From Paludibacter jiangxiensis (lineage in GTDB: Bacteria > Bacteroidota > Bacteroidia > Bacteroidales > Paludibacteraceae), in assembly GCF_001618385.1 (NCBI RefSeq), contig NZ_BDCR01000003.1, positions 496,001 through 560,000 of the forward strand: a stretch of 64,000 nt of DNA. Direction: 5' to 3'. Shown here piece after piece: positions 34,389 to 64,000 of the stretch. Numbering within the stretch: position 1 is the first letter of the stretch; each line of letters opens with the position of its first letter. The position numbers and the translations under genes are program-made. The notes beneath the pieces are model-generated. The model was not told the DNA's origin and made no database searches. It saw only the letters and a program-made list of their open reading frames with translations.

Positions 34389-35285
34389 TTATGATTTTTT
34401 CACCTCGTGACCGCCAAACTGATTCCGCATGGCTGCCAGTAATTTCATGGCATACGAATTTTCCTGACGCGACTGAAAGCGGGCAAAAAGCGAAGAGGTG
34501 ATAACCTGTGCGGGAACGTCAAAATCCATAGCGGTTTGTACTGTCCAGCGACCTTCGCCGCTATCAGCCACCCATGGTTGCAAATCGCTCAATTCCTGAT
34601 CTTTTTCAAGCGCATTTCCGATCAGTTCGAGCAGCCACGAACGCACTACCGAACCGTTCATCCAGACTTTAGCCACCTTTTCCAAATCGACATTGTAAGG
34701 CGAATTCTTCATTATTTCAAAACCTTCGGCATAGGCCTGCATCATACCGTATTCGATGCCGTTATGCACCATCTTGGTCATGTGACCGGCACCGCCTTCG
34801 CCGCAGTAGATATATCCGTTTTCGGGAGCCAGGCTTTTAAAGATTGGTTCTGCAAAATCGCAAGCCTTTTTTGGCCCGCCATACATCAGACAATAACCGT
34901 TTTGCAAGCCCCACACACCACCGCTGGTACCGCAATCGATATACTGAATTCCCTTTTCTTTAAGTTTCTCTCCACGAGCAACAGAATCGCGCCAGTAGCT
35001 ATTACCTCCGTCCACAATAATATCGCCTTCCAGAAGCAATTCTGACAATGCTTCCAAATTGATATCCACCGGTTTCCCGGAAGGTACCATCAGCCATACC
35101 AGTTTTTTACCTTCCAGTTTGCCAACCAAATCTTTCAGACCGGAAGCTGCTATAGCGCCGGCTGCAACAGCCTCATCGACTTCGGGTTGAGTAAGATTAT
35201 ATACCACCACCTGATGACCATCATTCAACAGGCGTTGTACCATCTTACCGCCCATCTTGCCTAAACCTATAAATCCTATTTTCAT
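34389..35285 (-). CDS. gnd: 6-phosphogluconate dehydrogenase (decarboxylating), short form
   Basis: 298 residues, the short YqeC/GntZ-type rather than the usual form of about 470 residues. Rossmann motif GFIGLGKMGGKMVQRLL at the N-terminus, substrate motif DGGNSYWRDS, DCGTSGGVWGL, and catalytic Lys in GAGHMTKMVHNGIEYG. It oxidises 6-phosphogluconate to ribulose-5-phosphate and CO2. The short form is often NAD-preferring; cofactor use here is inferred only from family. First gene of the gnd-zwf-pgl operon. Confidence 0.94.
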   Translation of the reverse strand: MKIGFIGLGKMGGKMVQRLLNDGHQVVVYNLTQPEVDEAVAAGAIAASGLKDLVGKLEGKKLVWLMVPSGKPVDINLEALSELLLEGDIIVDGGNSYWRDSVARGEKLKEKGIQYIDCGTSGGVWGLQNGYCLMYGGPKKACDFAEPIFKSLAPENGYIYCGEGGAGHMTKMVHNGIEYGMMQAYAEGFEIMKNSPYNVDLEKVAKVWMNGSVVRSWLLELIGNALEKDQELSDLQPWVADSGEGRWTVQTAMDFDVPAQVITSSLFARFQSRQENSYAMKLLAAMRNQFGGHEVKKS

Positions 35286-35485
35286 ACTATAATAATTTTT
35301 TGTTTAAAGTAGCATGGAACTCCATGTTGCTCAAATTATTCCCCGATAGTCATCGGGAACCCTTAGGTATTTTAACGCAACATGATCGTTTCATTGTTAC
35401 GAATCTTTTATACAATAAATATTGAACGGGATTTACCCGATAAAAAATATTCCGGCATTGCCTAAAACAAGCCGGATGAGTGATA

Positions 35486-35517
35486 CAAAGATACGTTACG
35501 GAGAAGCGAAATGCAAT
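35486..35517 (-). promoter_or_regulatory. Promoter for gnd-zwf-pgl
   Basis: Minus strand: ATTG at 35517-35514, 20 nt spacer, TATCTTTG at 35493-35486. The leader to gnd would be about 195 nt and includes small hairpins (CCCGAT/ATCGGG near 35342-35357 and AGCATGGA/TCCATGTTGCT near 35311-35331). Confidence 0.7.
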
Positions 35518-35593
35518 TTAGAAGGGTAAAAAAACGTAAAGAACCAGTCAGAAATCTACCTCTCATACATCCCTGATTTATTACTTTGAAAAG

Positions 35594-35840
35594 GGGGCTT
35601 CCGCCCCTATAACCCCGACTTACTTTTTGTCTTAAAACAAAAAGTAAGCAAAAAATTCAAGACTTCGCCCGCTTCGCTCAAAAAACAGGCGTTCATGAGC
35701 GGAAGTCGCTCAAACTTGCTTCCTCCTTACGTCGGAATCTTCAAACAAGAGCGACTCTACCCGCTCTCTCACTTTGTTTTTAGCTTGCGCTGACCGTTGG
35801 TTGGCTCATCGGACGAGGTCGATCCTAATCTGCCACAGCA
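35594..35840. repeat. Structured dispersed repeat, copy 1
   Basis: About 247 bp sharing a common backbone with 61995-62220. Stem A is GGGGC-TTCC-GCCCC (35594-35607). Stem B is CTTACTTTTTGT / ACAAAAAGTAAG (35619-35630 with 35637-35648). A conserved core GCCCGCTTCGCTCAAAAAAC follows, starting at about 35668. Stem C pairs 35697-35702 with 35761-35766 (GAGCGG/CCGCTC) and 35704-35711 with 35749-35756 (AGTCGCTC/GAGCGACT), with a bulged TAC on the 3' side. The 3' end is GATCCTAATCTG. It lies between the divergent gnd and sdaA promoters. No reading frame is credible in it. Confidence 0.85.
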
Positions 35841-35903
35841 ATCAAAAATTTATTATTCCATTTTCCCTGAAATGTATACCCGCAGACTACTTTGCAGAAT
35901 AAA

Positions 35904-35934
35904 TTTGATAATGGTCGAAAAACCTCTATTTTTG
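35904..35934 (+). promoter_or_regulatory. Promoter for sdaA
   Basis: TTTG (35904-35907), 19 nt spacer, TATTTTTG (35927-35934); exact match for both elements. It is 16 bases before the start codon at 35951, so the leader is only about 12 nt. Confidence 0.8.
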
Positions 35935-35950
35935 TGAAAAAATATACAGA

Positions 35951-37150
35951 ATGGATTCAATTACCGAATTATACCGGATAGGATACGGACCTTCCAGCAG
36001 TCACACGATGGCTCCTTCAAAAGCAGCTGCCATGTTTATGGAAAAACATCCTGAAACTGACCATTTCAGAGTGACTTTATACGGAAGTCTGGCTGCAACA
36101 GGCAAAGGGCACCTTACCGACAAAGCGATTATCGACCAGATGAAAGGCAGACAGGTAGAGATTGAGTGGCAACCAAAAATATTCCTACCCTTCCACCCGA
36201 ATGGCATGAAATTCGACGCTCTGGATGCAAATAAAAACATCACAGACAGCTGGCAGGTTTTCAGCGTAGGCGGCGGAGCTCTTGCAGAAGAAGGGCAATC
36301 CCAAATTAAAAACGCGATCTATCCATTCACCACCATGGAAGAAGTTCTTGATTACTGCGACAAAGAAGGACTGGCATTCTGGCAAGTCGTTGAACAATTT
36401 GAAGGGACTTCAATCAATGATTTTCTCAAGAAGGTTTGGAAAACCATGTGCGATGCCGTGGAACGGGGAATTGAAAACGAAGGAACGTTGCCCGGCATAT
36501 TAAAACTACAACGGAAAGCACCCAACTACTATGTGAAAGCAAAAGGATACAGCGAATCATTGCAACGCCGTGGAATGGTATATGCCTTTGCTTTGGCAGT
36601 AGCCGAAGAAAATGCAGCGGGAGGACTTATCGTAACGGCTCCTACCTGCGGTGCCTGTGCGGTAGTTCCGGCTGTACTGTACCAGCTAAAAAAATACCAC
36701 AACTTCTCCGAAGCCCGCATTTTAAGAGCTTTAGCAACTGCCGGCCTGATCGGAAATTTAGTGAAAACAAATGCCTCCATTTCGGGTGCCGATGTAGGAT
36801 GTCAGGGAGAAATAGGCACCGCCTGTTCCATGGCAGCAGCCGCGGCGACCCAACTTTTCGGAGGCACAAATACTCAAATAGAATATGCAGCAGAAATGGG
36901 CATGGAGCATCATCTGGGGCTCACCTGCGATCCGGTGGCAGGATTGGTACAAATCCCCTGCATAGAGAGAAATGCTATGGCTGCCGATCGTGCTTTCAAC
37001 TGTTGCACCTATTCTTTGCTTTCGGATGGGAAACACCGTATTTCCTTCGACCAAATTTGCAAAACGATGCTGCGTACCGGCAAAGATCTTGCCGCATCAT
37101 ATAAAGAAACAGCGCAAGGTGGTCTGGCTATATTGAAGAATATCTGCTGA
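35951..37150 (+). CDS. sdaA: L-serine dehydratase, iron-sulfur type, single chain
   Basis: 399 residues with the alpha and beta parts fused. Substrate motif GPSSSHTM at 13-20. The [4Fe-4S] cysteines are in TAPTCGACAVVP, in the GCQGEIGTACSMA region and in LTCDPVAGLVQIPC. It converts L-serine to pyruvate and ammonia; the oxygen-sensitive cluster fits an anaerobe. It has a consensus promoter immediately upstream and a terminator shared with the convergent copper locus. Confidence 0.95.
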   Translation: MDSITELYRIGYGPSSSHTMAPSKAAAMFMEKHPETDHFRVTLYGSLAATGKGHLTDKAIIDQMKGRQVEIEWQPKIFLPFHPNGMKFDALDANKNITDSWQVFSVGGGALAEEGQSQIKNAIYPFTTMEEVLDYCDKEGLAFWQVVEQFEGTSINDFLKKVWKTMCDAVERGIENEGTLPGILKLQRKAPNYYVKAKGYSESLQRRGMVYAFALAVAEENAAGGLIVTAPTCGACAVVPAVLYQLKKYHNFSEARILRALATAGLIGNLVKTNASISGADVGCQGEIGTACSMAAAAATQLFGGTNTQIEYAAEMGMEHHLGLTCDPVAGLVQIPCIERNAMAADRAFNCCTYSLLSDGKHRISFDQICKTMLRTGKDLAASYKETAQGGLAILKNIC

Positions 37151-59965: not shown

Positions 59966-61948
59966 TTACCGAGCTACCATCTGATTACGGATAAGCCGGT
60001 TATTGTACTGCTGAAGTATCGCTTTGATTTTCTGCGTCATCCGATTTACCACGACTGGTTCTTTATTCAACAGGTTATTGGTTAGCATTACGTCTTCTCT
60101 GAAGCGATAGAGCCCGATCGGATTTTTACCGTCGAACCGCAACATATAATCGCCTTCCATATATTGCATTACCCCACCATCGTCGTTCACCACAAAAGGA
60201 GCTCCATTCTTATCAAGCATATCGGCACCAAAGGCAAAATAGGGTTTCGGATAATGCAGGTAATCCAAAAGCGTAGGCATCACATTCAGCTGTTGCATCA
60301 CCCGGGTATCCTGCACCGGTGGCAGCGAATGATCGGGCGTGAAGAACACAATAGGAATTGCGAAATCGCCCAAGCCGTTCTTATATTCGTTGTGAACAAC
60401 TGCCGGCAACGAATGGTCAGCAGTGATTACGAAAATTGTATTCTTGTACCATGATTGTTGCGAAGCTGTTTTAAAGAAGCGTCGCAAAGCATAATCGGAG
60501 TAGCGGAGACATTTGTGCAAAGGAATTTTTCCCTCGGGAAATACATGCTGGTATTTTTCAGGTACGTGAAACGGATGATGCGACGAAAGAGTGAAAACGG
60601 TTGTCAGGAAAGGCTGACGAAAACTTCCCATTTTATTCGCAAAATACTGCAAAAATTCCTCGTCTTTTATCCCCCAAAAGCCATCAAAATCGGCATTATT
60701 ACCATATTCGTTCATCCCGTAATAGGCATCATATCCCAGCAATTTTGACATCGCATCAAAACCCATTGAACCATTGGGGGCACCATGAAAGAATGCAGTC
60801 TGATATCCTTCGTCTTTGAGTAGTGCCGCCAAACCTTTCATGTGATTACTGGCATAGCGACTAATAGCAAAAGGCTGATACAAAGAAGGAACGCTCGCCA
60901 GAACCGAAGGCATAGCTTCAATCGACTTGCGGCCGTTGGCAAAAGCATCGTAGTATGAGTGGCTGACCGAAATCAGAGAATCGAGAAATGGAGTATAACC
61001 TTTGTAGGTACCGTTTTCAAGGTAACGGTTCATCGATCCTACGTTTTCGCGGGCAAAACTCTCGAGAATAAGAATCACTACATTCTTTTTCTGAAATTTT
61101 TCATCCGTAAGATTCTTATGTATAGGAGAATAAATTGACTCAACCTCACTATCCGAATAATAGTGCTTTTCTTCCAGCACTTTCGCATTGATGGTACGCA
61201 GCATTGAAAACGGAGTATTGAGCACAATGCCCAGTTCGGCAGGATTATTCGCCTTGGCACCGGCATCAGCCAACGTGATCGGACGTGTGGTGCGGGTAAA
61301 CCCTCCACGGATTCCGGCAACAGACAAGCCGATGACCAATAAAAGAACGGCAAGCGTGACCGGATAAAAAAGCACCGGTTTCTTCGTCAGTTTGGAAGGT
61401 TCTGCCTTGCCGTAACTTTTCACCAGCACCACCATGAAGAAGATGAAGATGAATACCAGATACCAATACTGAAGGCAACCGGCGCCCAATATGGAGAGAA
61501 GATTGTTATTATTGCCGAATTCGGTAAAGAACGACCAGTCGGTACGGTGCAACGTAAAAGGAAAGTACGCAATATCAATCAAATTGACCATAATGGCCAC
61601 CCCGTTGGTTATAAAGAAGAGCCACTTGGTGACAGACTGGTAAATAGTGTGATAACGTATCCGCAAAGGGATGGATTGCAAGGCTATATTGAGAATATTG
61701 ACATAAAGAGCACCCGCCAAATCGAAACGCAACCCCTGCAACATCAACTCACCCAAATGACCCGGCGTCATATCTACAAACAAATGCCGGTTGAATACAT
61801 AAAACAGTAATCTGGTTACCGAAAAAAGCAGCATCACTACCAGGAAACGCCAGGCGATCATGACGTTAGCATTACTTATTATCAATGGGTTGATCCAAAA
61901 ACGTTTCCAGAATTTATTATCTCTCATCTTATTTCTTTTCGAAGTCAT
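59966..61948 (-). CDS. LTA synthase-like membrane phosphotransferase/sulfatase
   Basis: About 660 residues from Met32 of the open frame (61948; Met39 at 61927 also possible). The preceding codons to 62041 lie mostly in the dispersed repeat or its edge and are not likely translated. Five N-terminal transmembrane helices span about 20-220 from the start, then an alkaline-phosphatase-superfamily domain: NVVILILESFARENVG, nucleophile region FANGRKSIEAMPS (Ser where Gram-positive LtaS has Thr), and TADHSLPAV. Gram-negatives lack lipoteichoic acid; members often transfer phosphoglycerol or phosphoethanolamine to surface glycans. Substrate unknown. Confidence 0.87.
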   Translation of the reverse strand: MTSKRNKMRDNKFWKRFWINPLIISNANVMIAWRFLVVMLLFSVTRLLFYVFNRHLFVDMTPGHLGELMLQGLRFDLAGALYVNILNIALQSIPLRIRYHTIYQSVTKWLFFITNGVAIMVNLIDIAYFPFTLHRTDWSFFTEFGNNNNLLSILGAGCLQYWYLVFIFIFFMVVLVKSYGKAEPSKLTKKPVLFYPVTLAVLLLVIGLSVAGIRGGFTRTTRPITLADAGAKANNPAELGIVLNTPFSMLRTINAKVLEEKHYYSDSEVESIYSPIHKNLTDEKFQKKNVVILILESFARENVGSMNRYLENGTYKGYTPFLDSLISVSHSYYDAFANGRKSIEAMPSVLASVPSLYQPFAISRYASNHMKGLAALLKDEGYQTAFFHGAPNGSMGFDAMSKLLGYDAYYGMNEYGNNADFDGFWGIKDEEFLQYFANKMGSFRQPFLTTVFTLSSHHPFHVPEKYQHVFPEGKIPLHKCLRYSDYALRRFFKTASQQSWYKNTIFVITADHSLPAVVHNEYKNGLGDFAIPIVFFTPDHSLPPVQDTRVMQQLNVMPTLLDYLHYPKPYFAFGADMLDKNGAPFVVNDDGGVMQYMEGDYMLRFDGKNPIGLYRFREDVMLTNNLLNKEPVVVNRMTQKIKAILQQYNNRLIRNQMVAR

Positions 61949-61994
61949 TAATTGTACAGCGTCATCAGAAATTACGCATTTCAGAATTATGTAA

Positions 61995-62220
61995 GGGGCT
62001 TCCGCCCCTTTGACCCCGACTTCCTTTTTGTCTTGCCACAAAAAGGAAGCAAAAAGGTCAAGGCTATGCCCGCTTCGCTCAAAAAACCGGCGCTCGTCAA
62101 GCTAAATTGTCCAAACTTGCTCCTTCCTTTCGTCAGGAGCTTCAAACAATGGACAATTTTACGCTTGCCTCTCTGGTTTTTTGGCTCTCCGGACAAGGCC
62201 GATCCTAATCTGACGTAGCA
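61995..62220. repeat. Structured dispersed repeat, copy 2
   Basis: 226 bp, related to 35594-35840. Stem A GGGGC-TTCC-GCCCC (61995-62008). Stem B CTTCCTTTTTGT / ACAAAAAGGAAG (62020-62031 with 62038-62049). The core GCCCGCTTCGCTCAAAAAAC is identical to copy 1. Stem C pairs 62098-62102 with 62163-62167 (CAAGC/GCTTG) and 62104-62112 with 62151-62159 (AAATTGTCC/GGACAATTT), again with a bulged TAC on the 3' side. It ends GATCCTAATCTG. It is 82 bases before the mutL stop, between two minus-strand genes. Confidence 0.85.
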
Positions 62221-62301
62221 TCCTTTCGAAATTCAGTGTCTATTATTTGCCAAAATCTCAAATACGTAATCTTTGGTAGCGTCATCACGACACTGCCATT
62301 A

Positions 62302-64000
62302 TCAGAATTTTTTTTCAATCTCTTCGTTGCTCAGCACCACCACAATTTTCTTTCCATCCGGAGTATAATTGGGGTTTGAACAGGCAAACAGCTGCCCCAC
62401 CAAATGATCCATTTCTTCAAAAGCCATTGGTTGGCCATAGCCTACCGCAGCCGCTTTGGCCAGTGTAAGGGCTATGTTTTCGTGCAATACCTCTTTCACA
62501 TTGGCATCTTTATTTTTGATGCAGTCAATGATACTCTCCACAATAGGAAGAACATCCTTACCTTCGAGTCCGGCCGGAATACCGTTGATTGAGAACGTTT
62601 GTTTACCAAACAATGCTATATCAAGACCAACGCACCCCAGTTCGTCAATAGCCGTCTGTAACACAAGGGCATCTGCAGCATTTAGTTCCACTATTTCGGG
62701 GAAAAGCAACTGCTGCGAAATACCATGACGACTGTTGAGCTGTTCCATAAACTGCTCGAACAACACACGTACATGGGCTCTTTGCTTATCAATGAGCATT
62801 ACGCCTGATTTACCGCCGGTAATGATGTAACGGCCTTTGTACAAAAGGTAATTGCTTGTCTCCGGCAAAGGATCGGACTGATCTATCACTGACGAAAGTA
62901 AAGAAGGTACAACCATCGGTTCCATTTCGGCAACCGGAGGTTCGTACGATGGCTGTGATACCGGCTTTTCGAAATCCTGATACAATTTTTCCCAATTCAT
63001 AGGCGGACGGGAATAATTAGGTCGTTCCGAATGAGTCTCGAACGGATTGTAGGCAGGATTCACCTTTATCTGAGGCGGAATAGCAGGACGGCTCCTGTCG
63101 ATTACAGGAATATCGATGGCACCTTCCACATCAAATTCAATGCTTGGTACCGCATTCGACTTGCCGAGCACTTCTTTGATTGCAGCGGTAATAATCGGCC
63201 AGATAGCAGCTTCATTCTCAAATTTGATTTCTGTCTTTGTCGGGTGAATATTCACATCGATGCTACCCGGATCAATATCGAAATAGATGAAATAGTTTGG
63301 TCCTGCATCGTTTGCCAAAAGCCTGTCGTAAGCCTGCATTACCGCTTTGTGAAAATAGGGATGGCGCATATACCGTCCGTTCACAAAGAAATATTGATTG
63401 GCATTTCGCAGGGCAGTTTCTGGCGTCCCCACATAACCCGAGATATTGACTAACGTGGTAGTGGTGTCAATCGGAAGAAGCTGGCGGCTAAAATTATTGT
63501 TTTTGTTACCAAAAATATGCGCAATTCGCTGTCTTCTGTTAGTGGCAGCAAGTTCGTAAATCTCCGTATCGTTGTGTGTTAGCGAAAAATGCAATTCCGG
63601 GTATACCAAGGCAATCCGTATAAATTCCGTGATAATATGCCGGAGCTCGGTTTCGTTCGATTTGAGAAATTTTCTTCGGGCCGGAACGTTAAAAAAGAGA
63701 TTCTTAATAAAAAAAGAAGTCCCTGTCGGACAATTGCCCGGCTGCTGGCTTTCAACCTGCGACCCTGCAATATTGATGAAAGTTCCCAGTTCATCTTCTT
63801 TACGGCGTGTTCTCAATTCGACCTGCGCTACGGCAGCAATAGAAGCGAGCGCCTCTCCCCGAAATCCCATCGTACGCAGGGCAAACAAATCGGCAGCCGA
63901 ACTGATCTTTGAAGTAGCATGACGTTCGAATGCCATACGGGCATCCATTTCTGACATTCCCTTACCATCGTCTGTCACCTGAATCAGTGTTCGTCCTGCA
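62302..64000 (-). CDS. mutL: DNA mismatch repair protein MutL, 5' end outside the window
   Basis: At least 566 residues are visible and the frame is still open at the right edge, so the apparent GTG start at 63978 is internal. GHKL ATPase motifs: VTDDGKGM (Asp for Mg), HATSKI, TMGFRGEALASIAAV, then a GTSFFIKNLFFNVPARRKFLKS element and the DVNIHPTKTEIKF motif. A C-terminal dimerisation domain follows a Pro-rich linker. It couples mismatch recognition to strand incision. The endonuclease motif DQHA(x)2E is replaced by IDKQRAHVRVLFEQF, with His kept but context altered, so nuclease activity is uncertain. Confidence 0.94.
   Translation of the reverse strand, partial: AGRTLIQVTDDGKGMSEMDARMAFERHATSKISSAADLFALRTMGFRGEALASIAAVAQVELRTRRKEDELGTFINIAGSQVESQQPGNCPTGTSFFIKNLFFNVPARRKFLKSNETELRHIITEFIRIALVYPELHFSLTHNDTEIYELAATNRRQRIAHIFGNKNNNFSRQLLPIDTTTTLVNISGYVGTPETALRNANQYFFVNGRYMRHPYFHKAVMQAYDRLLANDAGPNYFIYFDIDPGSIDVNIHPTKTEIKFENEAAIWPIITAAIKEVLGKSNAVPSIEFDVEGAIDIPVIDRSRPAIPPQIKVNPAYNPFETHSERPNYSRPPMNWEKLYQDFEKPVSQPSYEPPVAEMEPMVVPSLLSSVIDQSDPLPETSNYLLYKGRYIITGGKSGVMLIDKQRAHVRVLFEQFMEQLNSRHGISQQLLFPEIVELNAADALVLQTAIDELGCVGLDIALFGKQTFSINGIPAGLEGKDVLPIVESIIDCIKNKDANVKEVLHENIALTLAKAAAVGYGQPMAFEEMDHLVGQLFACSNPNYTPDGKKIVVVLSNEEIEKKF

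Follow-up and report, generated by a model that had tools for sequence, protein, structure and literature searches.

A putative folded module carried by ISAs1-type MITEs of Paludibacter jiangxiensis and by an unrelated transposon backbone

Results

Layout of the two window copies

The window, a stretch of 64,000 nucleotides from Paludibacter jiangxiensis (contig NZ_BDCR01000003.1, positions 496,001 to 560,000), holds two forward-strand copies of a repeat. Copy 1 (window 34389-37150) is flanked by two genes, one with 6-phosphogluconate dehydrogenase and the other with serine dehydratase domains; of the genes on either side of copy 2 (59966-63978), one has a sulfatase domain and the other mismatch-repair (MutL) domains. 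Copy 1 starts with hairpin A (GGGGC..GCCCC, 35593-35608; also present in relatives), followed by the stem B hairpin (35619-35648, loop CTTAAA at 35631-35636), the probable pseudoknot partner TTCAAG of this loop (35656-35661, 5/6 pairs), the long hairpin C (35661-35820) with an apical AAACTTG...TTCAAACA loop, a TAC bulge and an insertion of ~21 nt in its 3' strand, and the conserved tail GATCCTAATCTG (35821-35832). The same parts in copy 2 are hairpin A (61995-62008), stem B (62020-62049, loop CTTGCC at 62032-62037), the probable partner GTCAAG (62057-62062, 5/6 pairs), hairpin C with an apical internal loop (62062-62200) and the tail GATCCTAATCTG (62201-62212). Hairpins and tails were read directly in the sequence; hairpin A of copy 1 and stem B and hairpin C of both copies are additionally supported by folding, stem B also by covariation. 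Both copies fold better than 200 of 200 dinucleotide shuffles (z -5.2 for copy 1, -6.9 for copy 2).

A preliminary description of this DNA had pointed out a common scaffold (GGGGC/GCCCC hairpin, stem B, an identical 20-base core and the GATCCTAATCTG end), a TAC bulge in both copies and a compensatory pair (A35622-T35645 in copy 1, C62023-G62046 in copy 2); all of these are present, and the stem C arms, unlike between the copies, are each complementary to their own partner. Both copies are real, but the borders given for copy 2 fall short: it is the interior of a complete 310-bp MITE (61966-62275). This element has a left terminal inverted repeat (61966-61988, 20/23 to CAGGGATTACGCATTTAAGAATT) and a right one on the reverse strand (62253-62275, 18/23), and lies between the target-site duplications ACAGCGTCAT (61956-61965) and GTAGCGTCAT (62276-62285), which are identical at 8 of 10 positions. 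Copy 1 has neither recognisable terminal repeats nor a target duplication, and it is probably an older or decayed copy. Three other copies share its stem C insertion of ~21 bases on the 3' side; this TTAGCTTGCGCTGACCGTTGG-like segment varies in presence (L018, L020, L024 and L023, which is window copy 1).

A multi-copy intergenic family

The own genome comprises 3.66 Mb in 4 contigs; BLAST found 28 matches in it, which represent 26 distinct places, the best match apart from itself being 96% identical to copy 2. The repeat, for which a family had been proposed as one possibility, thus occurs at many places and not just two. In the alignment of the 26 places similarity often extends beyond the first-described borders into the inverted ends CAGGGATTACGCATTTAAGAATT. 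All 24 copies compared with a simple frame caller are intergenic when overlaps of up to 60 bases are tolerated (four overlap a neighbour by 34-51 bases). The surrounding genes are divergent in ten cases, tandem in 8 + 5 and convergent in one, so that most of the 24 are located on the promoter side of a gene.

The 310-bp element contains only short frames and no transposase. The earlier statement that no reading frame is present has to be qualified, as open frames of 88-107 aa do cross some copies: short frames cross 7 of 24 copies, and copy 2 is crossed by one of 88 aa (61952-62218), which could get annotated as a spurious protein. Since cores from different genera differ in length by 1-2 bases, we take these frames as spurious, and a protein-coding reading was rejected on the same ground. 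Three copies of the own genome (L011, L020, L025) carry an extra segment with GTCGGGATGT or a close variant directly 5' of the stem B loop CTTG; a GTCGGGATGT-containing segment occurs also in L193 and L224 from two other genomes and resembles a nested element or an alternative loop.

Ends, target duplications and transposases

All 18 sites of the end pattern in the own genome fall at element copies, compared to none in the reversed control. In 11 of the 24 copies the left and the right terminal repeat each have at least 15 of 23 positions matching, a level reached by 0.2% of random 126-base windows; the other 13 have no two clear terminal repeats. In the 11 two-ended copies the 10-bp duplications agree at 7.9/10 positions on average versus 2.8 with ends swapped, and in eight of them at 7/10 or more. 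Copy 2 shows both features of a MITE, terminal repeats and a duplication (8/10), whereas copy 1 has no terminal repeats. Terminal inverted repeats, target duplications and the lack of an internal transposase bear out the proposal of a non-autonomous mobile element.

ISAs1-type duplications span 8-10 bp. A genome of the same genus (G005) has a complete ISAs1-family IS of ~1.24 kb with a 377-aa transposase frame; its ends are CAGGGAAAACGCTTTTA, and its 10-bp duplication reads TTATGAATCA. The element ends resemble those of this IS, and both make a 10-bp duplication; the comparison thus finds in the element the CAGGG-type ends and the duplication of the ISAs1 type. A copy from another family (L101/L296, genome G516) has CAGGGCAAACGCATTTAA ends, flanked by a 10-bp duplication, CTTATTGCCC. 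Ends and duplication together indicate an ISAs1-type DDE transposase, and we infer that such an enzyme, supplied in trans, probably moved the element. Matches to the ISAs1 transposase are present in 10 of 101 genomes of the bacterial family, four of them above the curated cut-off. The own genome has no match to this transposase (NF033564), which counts against our preferred explanation, and we do not claim current mobility.

A scan for terminal repeats at 30 loci in other genomes brought three past the threshold, and L101 and L062 have recognisable ends; no clear termini were found at the Thermodesulfobacteriota copies searched for them. By eye, L063/L142/L071 and L061/L073 have further types of terminal repeat.

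Fold and covariation

From 42 loci tried, 33 were extracted, and 32 distinct Bacteroidota copies, 11 of them from the own genome, were aligned; L063 was dropped as it has no pseudoknot strand. The structure tested was written by hand and included the pseudoknot. Paired cells amounted to 88.2% (80.1 shuffled), pairs changed on both sides to 27 of 52 (19.0 shuffled), cells with changes on both sides to 176 (65.2 shuffled) and the covariation score to 0.269 (0.132 shuffled), values which none of 500 shuffles reached in any of the four measures, although these controls ignore relatedness among the copies. Further pair types numbered 49, below the shuffled mean of 54.9. Sliding the partners by one column lowered pairing to 55-57%. 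The covariation of the stems postulated from two copies is therefore borne out on the set of 32, and the figures support selection on the fold.

Stem C pairs at 64% in its lower and 72% in its upper part, partly because the alignment register is one base off in some rows. For the 12 distinct 5' arms of stem C in the own genome (core L020 left out) the contiguous run is 5.4 with the own 3' arm and 3.0 with swapped arms, and does not exceed four in six of the 12 arm pairs. The arms of stem B pair at 6.2/9 versus 3.6 swapped (0/20000 permutations; 25 representatives, false anchors kept). Many of the variants hence pair above swapped controls, as had been expected for arms in further copies. The AAACTC/TCAAACA loop and the A-rich spacer are unpaired and nearly invariant. 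G.T and A.C wobbles number 4 versus 12 in outer stem B and 23 versus 15 in stem C, so that no strand is favoured; a second wobble count was likewise mixed. Twelve loci of other genomes fold as long hairpins, with MFE of -98.6 to -255.2 kcal/mol for the stretches folded, given without a shuffle control.

A probable pseudoknot

The loop of stem B is complementary to a 6-base stretch downstream, a feature absent from the earlier description. Our main test used an anchor independent of the pseudoknot (113 anchors; 48 distinct copies in which the hairpin loop has six bases). Loop and partner pair at 6/6 in 27 copies, at 5/6 in 17 and at 4/6 or less in four (L063, L065, L117, L291); the mean is 5.40/6 versus 4.79 swapped (0/20000 permutations), and over the 15 distinct loop/partner combinations 4.73 versus 4.15 (29/20000). 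In the own genome 8 of 18 copies reach 6/6 and 10 of 18 reach 5/6; the two window copies belong to the 5/6 group. In a narrower test, whose anchor demands CTTGA/CCTGA-type loops plus TCAAG and so omits copies like window copy 2 (CTTGCC), the sixth loop base was matched in 20 of 25 cases versus 8.6 expected. Changes on both sides affect one of five pseudoknot pairs in the 32-copy alignment (A3), whose anchors demand CTTGA-like loops and mostly TCAAG, and three pairs never vary. Taken together, a pseudoknot is supported as probable, if imperfect.

One interior in unrelated backbones

By BLAST the core was found in 14 of the 101 genomes of the family, the own included. In one of these, G038, which has the same site positions as Paludibacter sp. 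221, it lies in MITEs with AGTACATGACAAAAA ends and 9-bp duplications at all 12 places fetched, which account for 23 of the 40 end sites listed there. The 9-bp duplications agree at 8.3/9 versus 3.1 swapped. A script matched the intact apical pattern in five of the 12 places, and six have one or more N (three of them a single N). Two of the places (L286, L288) have the distal part of stem C swapped for another GC-rich hairpin, with the outer parts and the ends kept. L137 and L142, from different Paludibacter genomes, align over 195 columns with 94% identity, a span bounded by hairpin A and the closing pair of hairpin C, whereas their flanks are unrelated. On sequence comparison, then, no fewer than two unrelated transposon backbones carry this interior. 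Since MITEs with unrelated ends have the same interior, the core is a passenger separable from the transposon, suggestive of a structured nucleic acid that hitch-hikes on jumping elements.

At L072 and L082 (genome G007) the core sits within tandem units of ~450 bp, and in L117 and L177 tens of inserted bases separate stem B from the sequence normally 3' of the pseudoknot strand.

Occurrence in other genomes

A covariance model with eight candidates scored per genome detected the element in 5 of 395 genomes of the phylum, the own included; the search beyond the own genome that had been suggested did turn up other carriers, but few of them. An order-wide pattern matched 2 of 295 genomes, again including the own. 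A looser apical pattern, which also misses copies of the own genome, gave 35 matches in 23 of 296 phylum genomes versus 36 in the reversed control, and is therefore at chance except in G319 (8 matches). No element match was obtained in phage, plasmid and E. coli collections, and carriage by phages or plasmids was rejected on this ground; viral_contigs gave one stretch.

Scanning named genome contigs for the apical motif yielded at least 119 stretches. Among the 80 matches listed, a single Thermodesulfobacteriota genome contributes 30, and the remainder include Bacteroidota, Betaproteobacteria, Elusimicrobia and further groups; some hits are plainly coding coincidences. The arms beside the motif form runs of 4.4 with their own partner versus 1.6 swapped (0/20000; 38 representatives of the at least 119 stretches, coincidences kept), a contiguous-run score adopted after the weak outcome of an earlier swap of fixed 10-base arms (7.3/10 versus 6.2) was known. 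Loop and following stretch share 4.1 complementary bases versus 3.3 swapped (0/20000; 30 representatives of 70 with an upstream hairpin), and complementarity reaches five in 12 of these 30 versus 10% swapped. This suggests a similar architecture in Betaproteobacteria and one Thermodesulfobacteriota genome. Due to the selection by a single motif and the chance level of the looser motif in 296 phylum genomes, we claim neither homology across phyla nor a wide spread.

In line with the preliminary description, which knew of no named family, the Rfam searches gave no match to the element: Rfam 15 at gathering scores found one tRNA only in the window, eight loci elsewhere had no match at E<=1, and a set of eight such loci had none at gathering.

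Discussion

We moderately favour the explanation that the repeat is a non-autonomous ISAs1-type MITE carrying a structured module, whose RNA, made by read-through, would insulate or stabilise the insert. The module consists of the GC hairpin A, a probable H-type pseudoknot (stem B with its loop, plus the A-rich spacer on its 3' side), and a long irregular hairpin C with a conserved unpaired AAACTC/TCAAACA cap. We infer that it acts single-stranded, somewhat likelier as transcribed RNA, although this falls a little short of an even chance, than as ssDNA or a cruciform hairpin, which has roughly a third of our confidence. Transcribed RNA is favoured on steric grounds, since the pseudoknot and its A-rich third loop would fit that strand, a matter of reasoning and not of computation. 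Neighbouring promoters may read through into the insert, the resulting RNA may fold into the pseudoknot and the capped hairpin, and the folded RNA could then insulate or stabilise the inserted stretch. Insertions between genes would thereby become tolerable, and this would account for the presence of the module in unrelated transposons. The placement of copies on the promoter side of genes means that a role in insulation is not singled out.

The interiors of MITEs are commonly treated as filler, whereas here the interior retains its fold through compensatory changes. With two unrelated backbones sharing one interior, the advantage of a folded RNA or DNA module to mobile elements becomes testable, and so does the idea of an overlooked structured element common to several phyla. 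Rather doubtful at present is the broader proposal that Bacteroidota, Betaproteobacteria and Thermodesulfobacteriota have one module class in common (a pseudoknot and a long hairpin with a cap), which spreads through capture by unrelated DNA transposons and has a conserved function at the RNA level. If true, the module would be a transposon-independent RNA, selfish or useful, with other elements as its vehicles.

Several known systems resemble the element in part. MITEs of Porphyromonas gingivalis (BrickBuilt, MITE239, MITE464/PgRS) are, according to passages of PMC4596501, likewise small and without transposase, with terminal repeats resembling the ends of full IS. Those MITEs, however, have similar ends and unrelated interiors, while the present element has one interior and unrelated ends; the interiors of BrickBuilt and 464/PgRS consist of 23- and 41-nt tandem repeats, unlike our module, and their matching IS belong to the IS5 family instead of ISAs1 (same source). 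ISAs1-family IS (NCBIfam NF033564) share with the element the CAGGG..ACGC.TTTA end type and the 10-bp duplication; the IS of G005 has no room for the module, as its 377-aa frame fills ~1.24 kb. IStrons, described in PMC4227781 as a group I intron joined to an IS, also place a structured nucleic acid on a DNA transposon; unlike in IStrons, no group I intron is recognised here, since there is no Rfam match. Passages of PMC2864571 list the candidate RNAs Burkholderiales-1, Bacteroides-2 and Transposase-resistance without an Rfam accession, in taxa that overlap partly with those of the module; the comparison with them is by description only. With this proviso the structured module is uncatalogued. 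The open literature covered, including passages of PMC9769881, PMC3733652, PMC4596501, PMC2267715 and PMC2864571, gave no account of the element.

As an alternative to the RNA, the fold may function as DNA, with ssDNA or cruciform hairpins that bring transposon ends together, pause replication or serve as recombination substrate. This is possible but on balance unlikely: the pairs are mostly Watson-Crick with wobbles free of strand bias, the twelve loci of other genomes form long predicted hairpins and the module travels together with transposon ends, but conserved unpaired loops are not needed for a simple end synapsis, and the pseudoknot with its A-rich third loop suits one strand and, on the steric reasoning given above, looks RNA-like. 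Alternatively, mutation by itself could keep the stems complementary, with template switching perfecting inverted repeats in the absence of selection. Rare wobble intermediates would agree with this; nevertheless we consider it quite improbable, as perfecting would erase the AAACTC/TCAAACA loop and the A-rich spacer.

REP repeats are associated with a Y1 transposase. The preliminary description had considered such an origin, in which a RAYT (Y1) enzyme moves a REP/REPIN-type element, and the genome does have seven Y1_Tnp matches, three of them partial ones in frames of 184-204 aa that we take as RAYT-like. None of the seven has an element within 1.5 kb, and the terminal inverted repeats, together with duplications of a fixed 10 bp or 9 bp, point to DDE-type transposition, so the Y1_Tnp search and flank check led us to reject this origin as very improbable. 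REPs are, in passages of PMC3733652, dispersed hairpins with complementary stem changes like our element. They measure 20-40 bp and have GTAG or CGTC tags, compared to 195-310 bp and DDE-type ends here.

Equally remote is a guide-RNA-like partner of a TnpB or similar nuclease acting in trans, which a structured sequence within a mobile element might bring to mind, but which has against it the lack of an Rfam match, a TnpB domain in only 1 of 13 module- or motif-bearing genomes and the 14 largest clusters of neighbour proteins, where no transposon or nuclease protein was recognised. TnpB and reverse transcriptase, the latter present in 7 of the 13 genomes, were both rejected as consistent partners. 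The two largest neighbour clusters cover seven loci each; one comprises response regulators, as judged by reading, and the other repeat-derived frames of a single genome.
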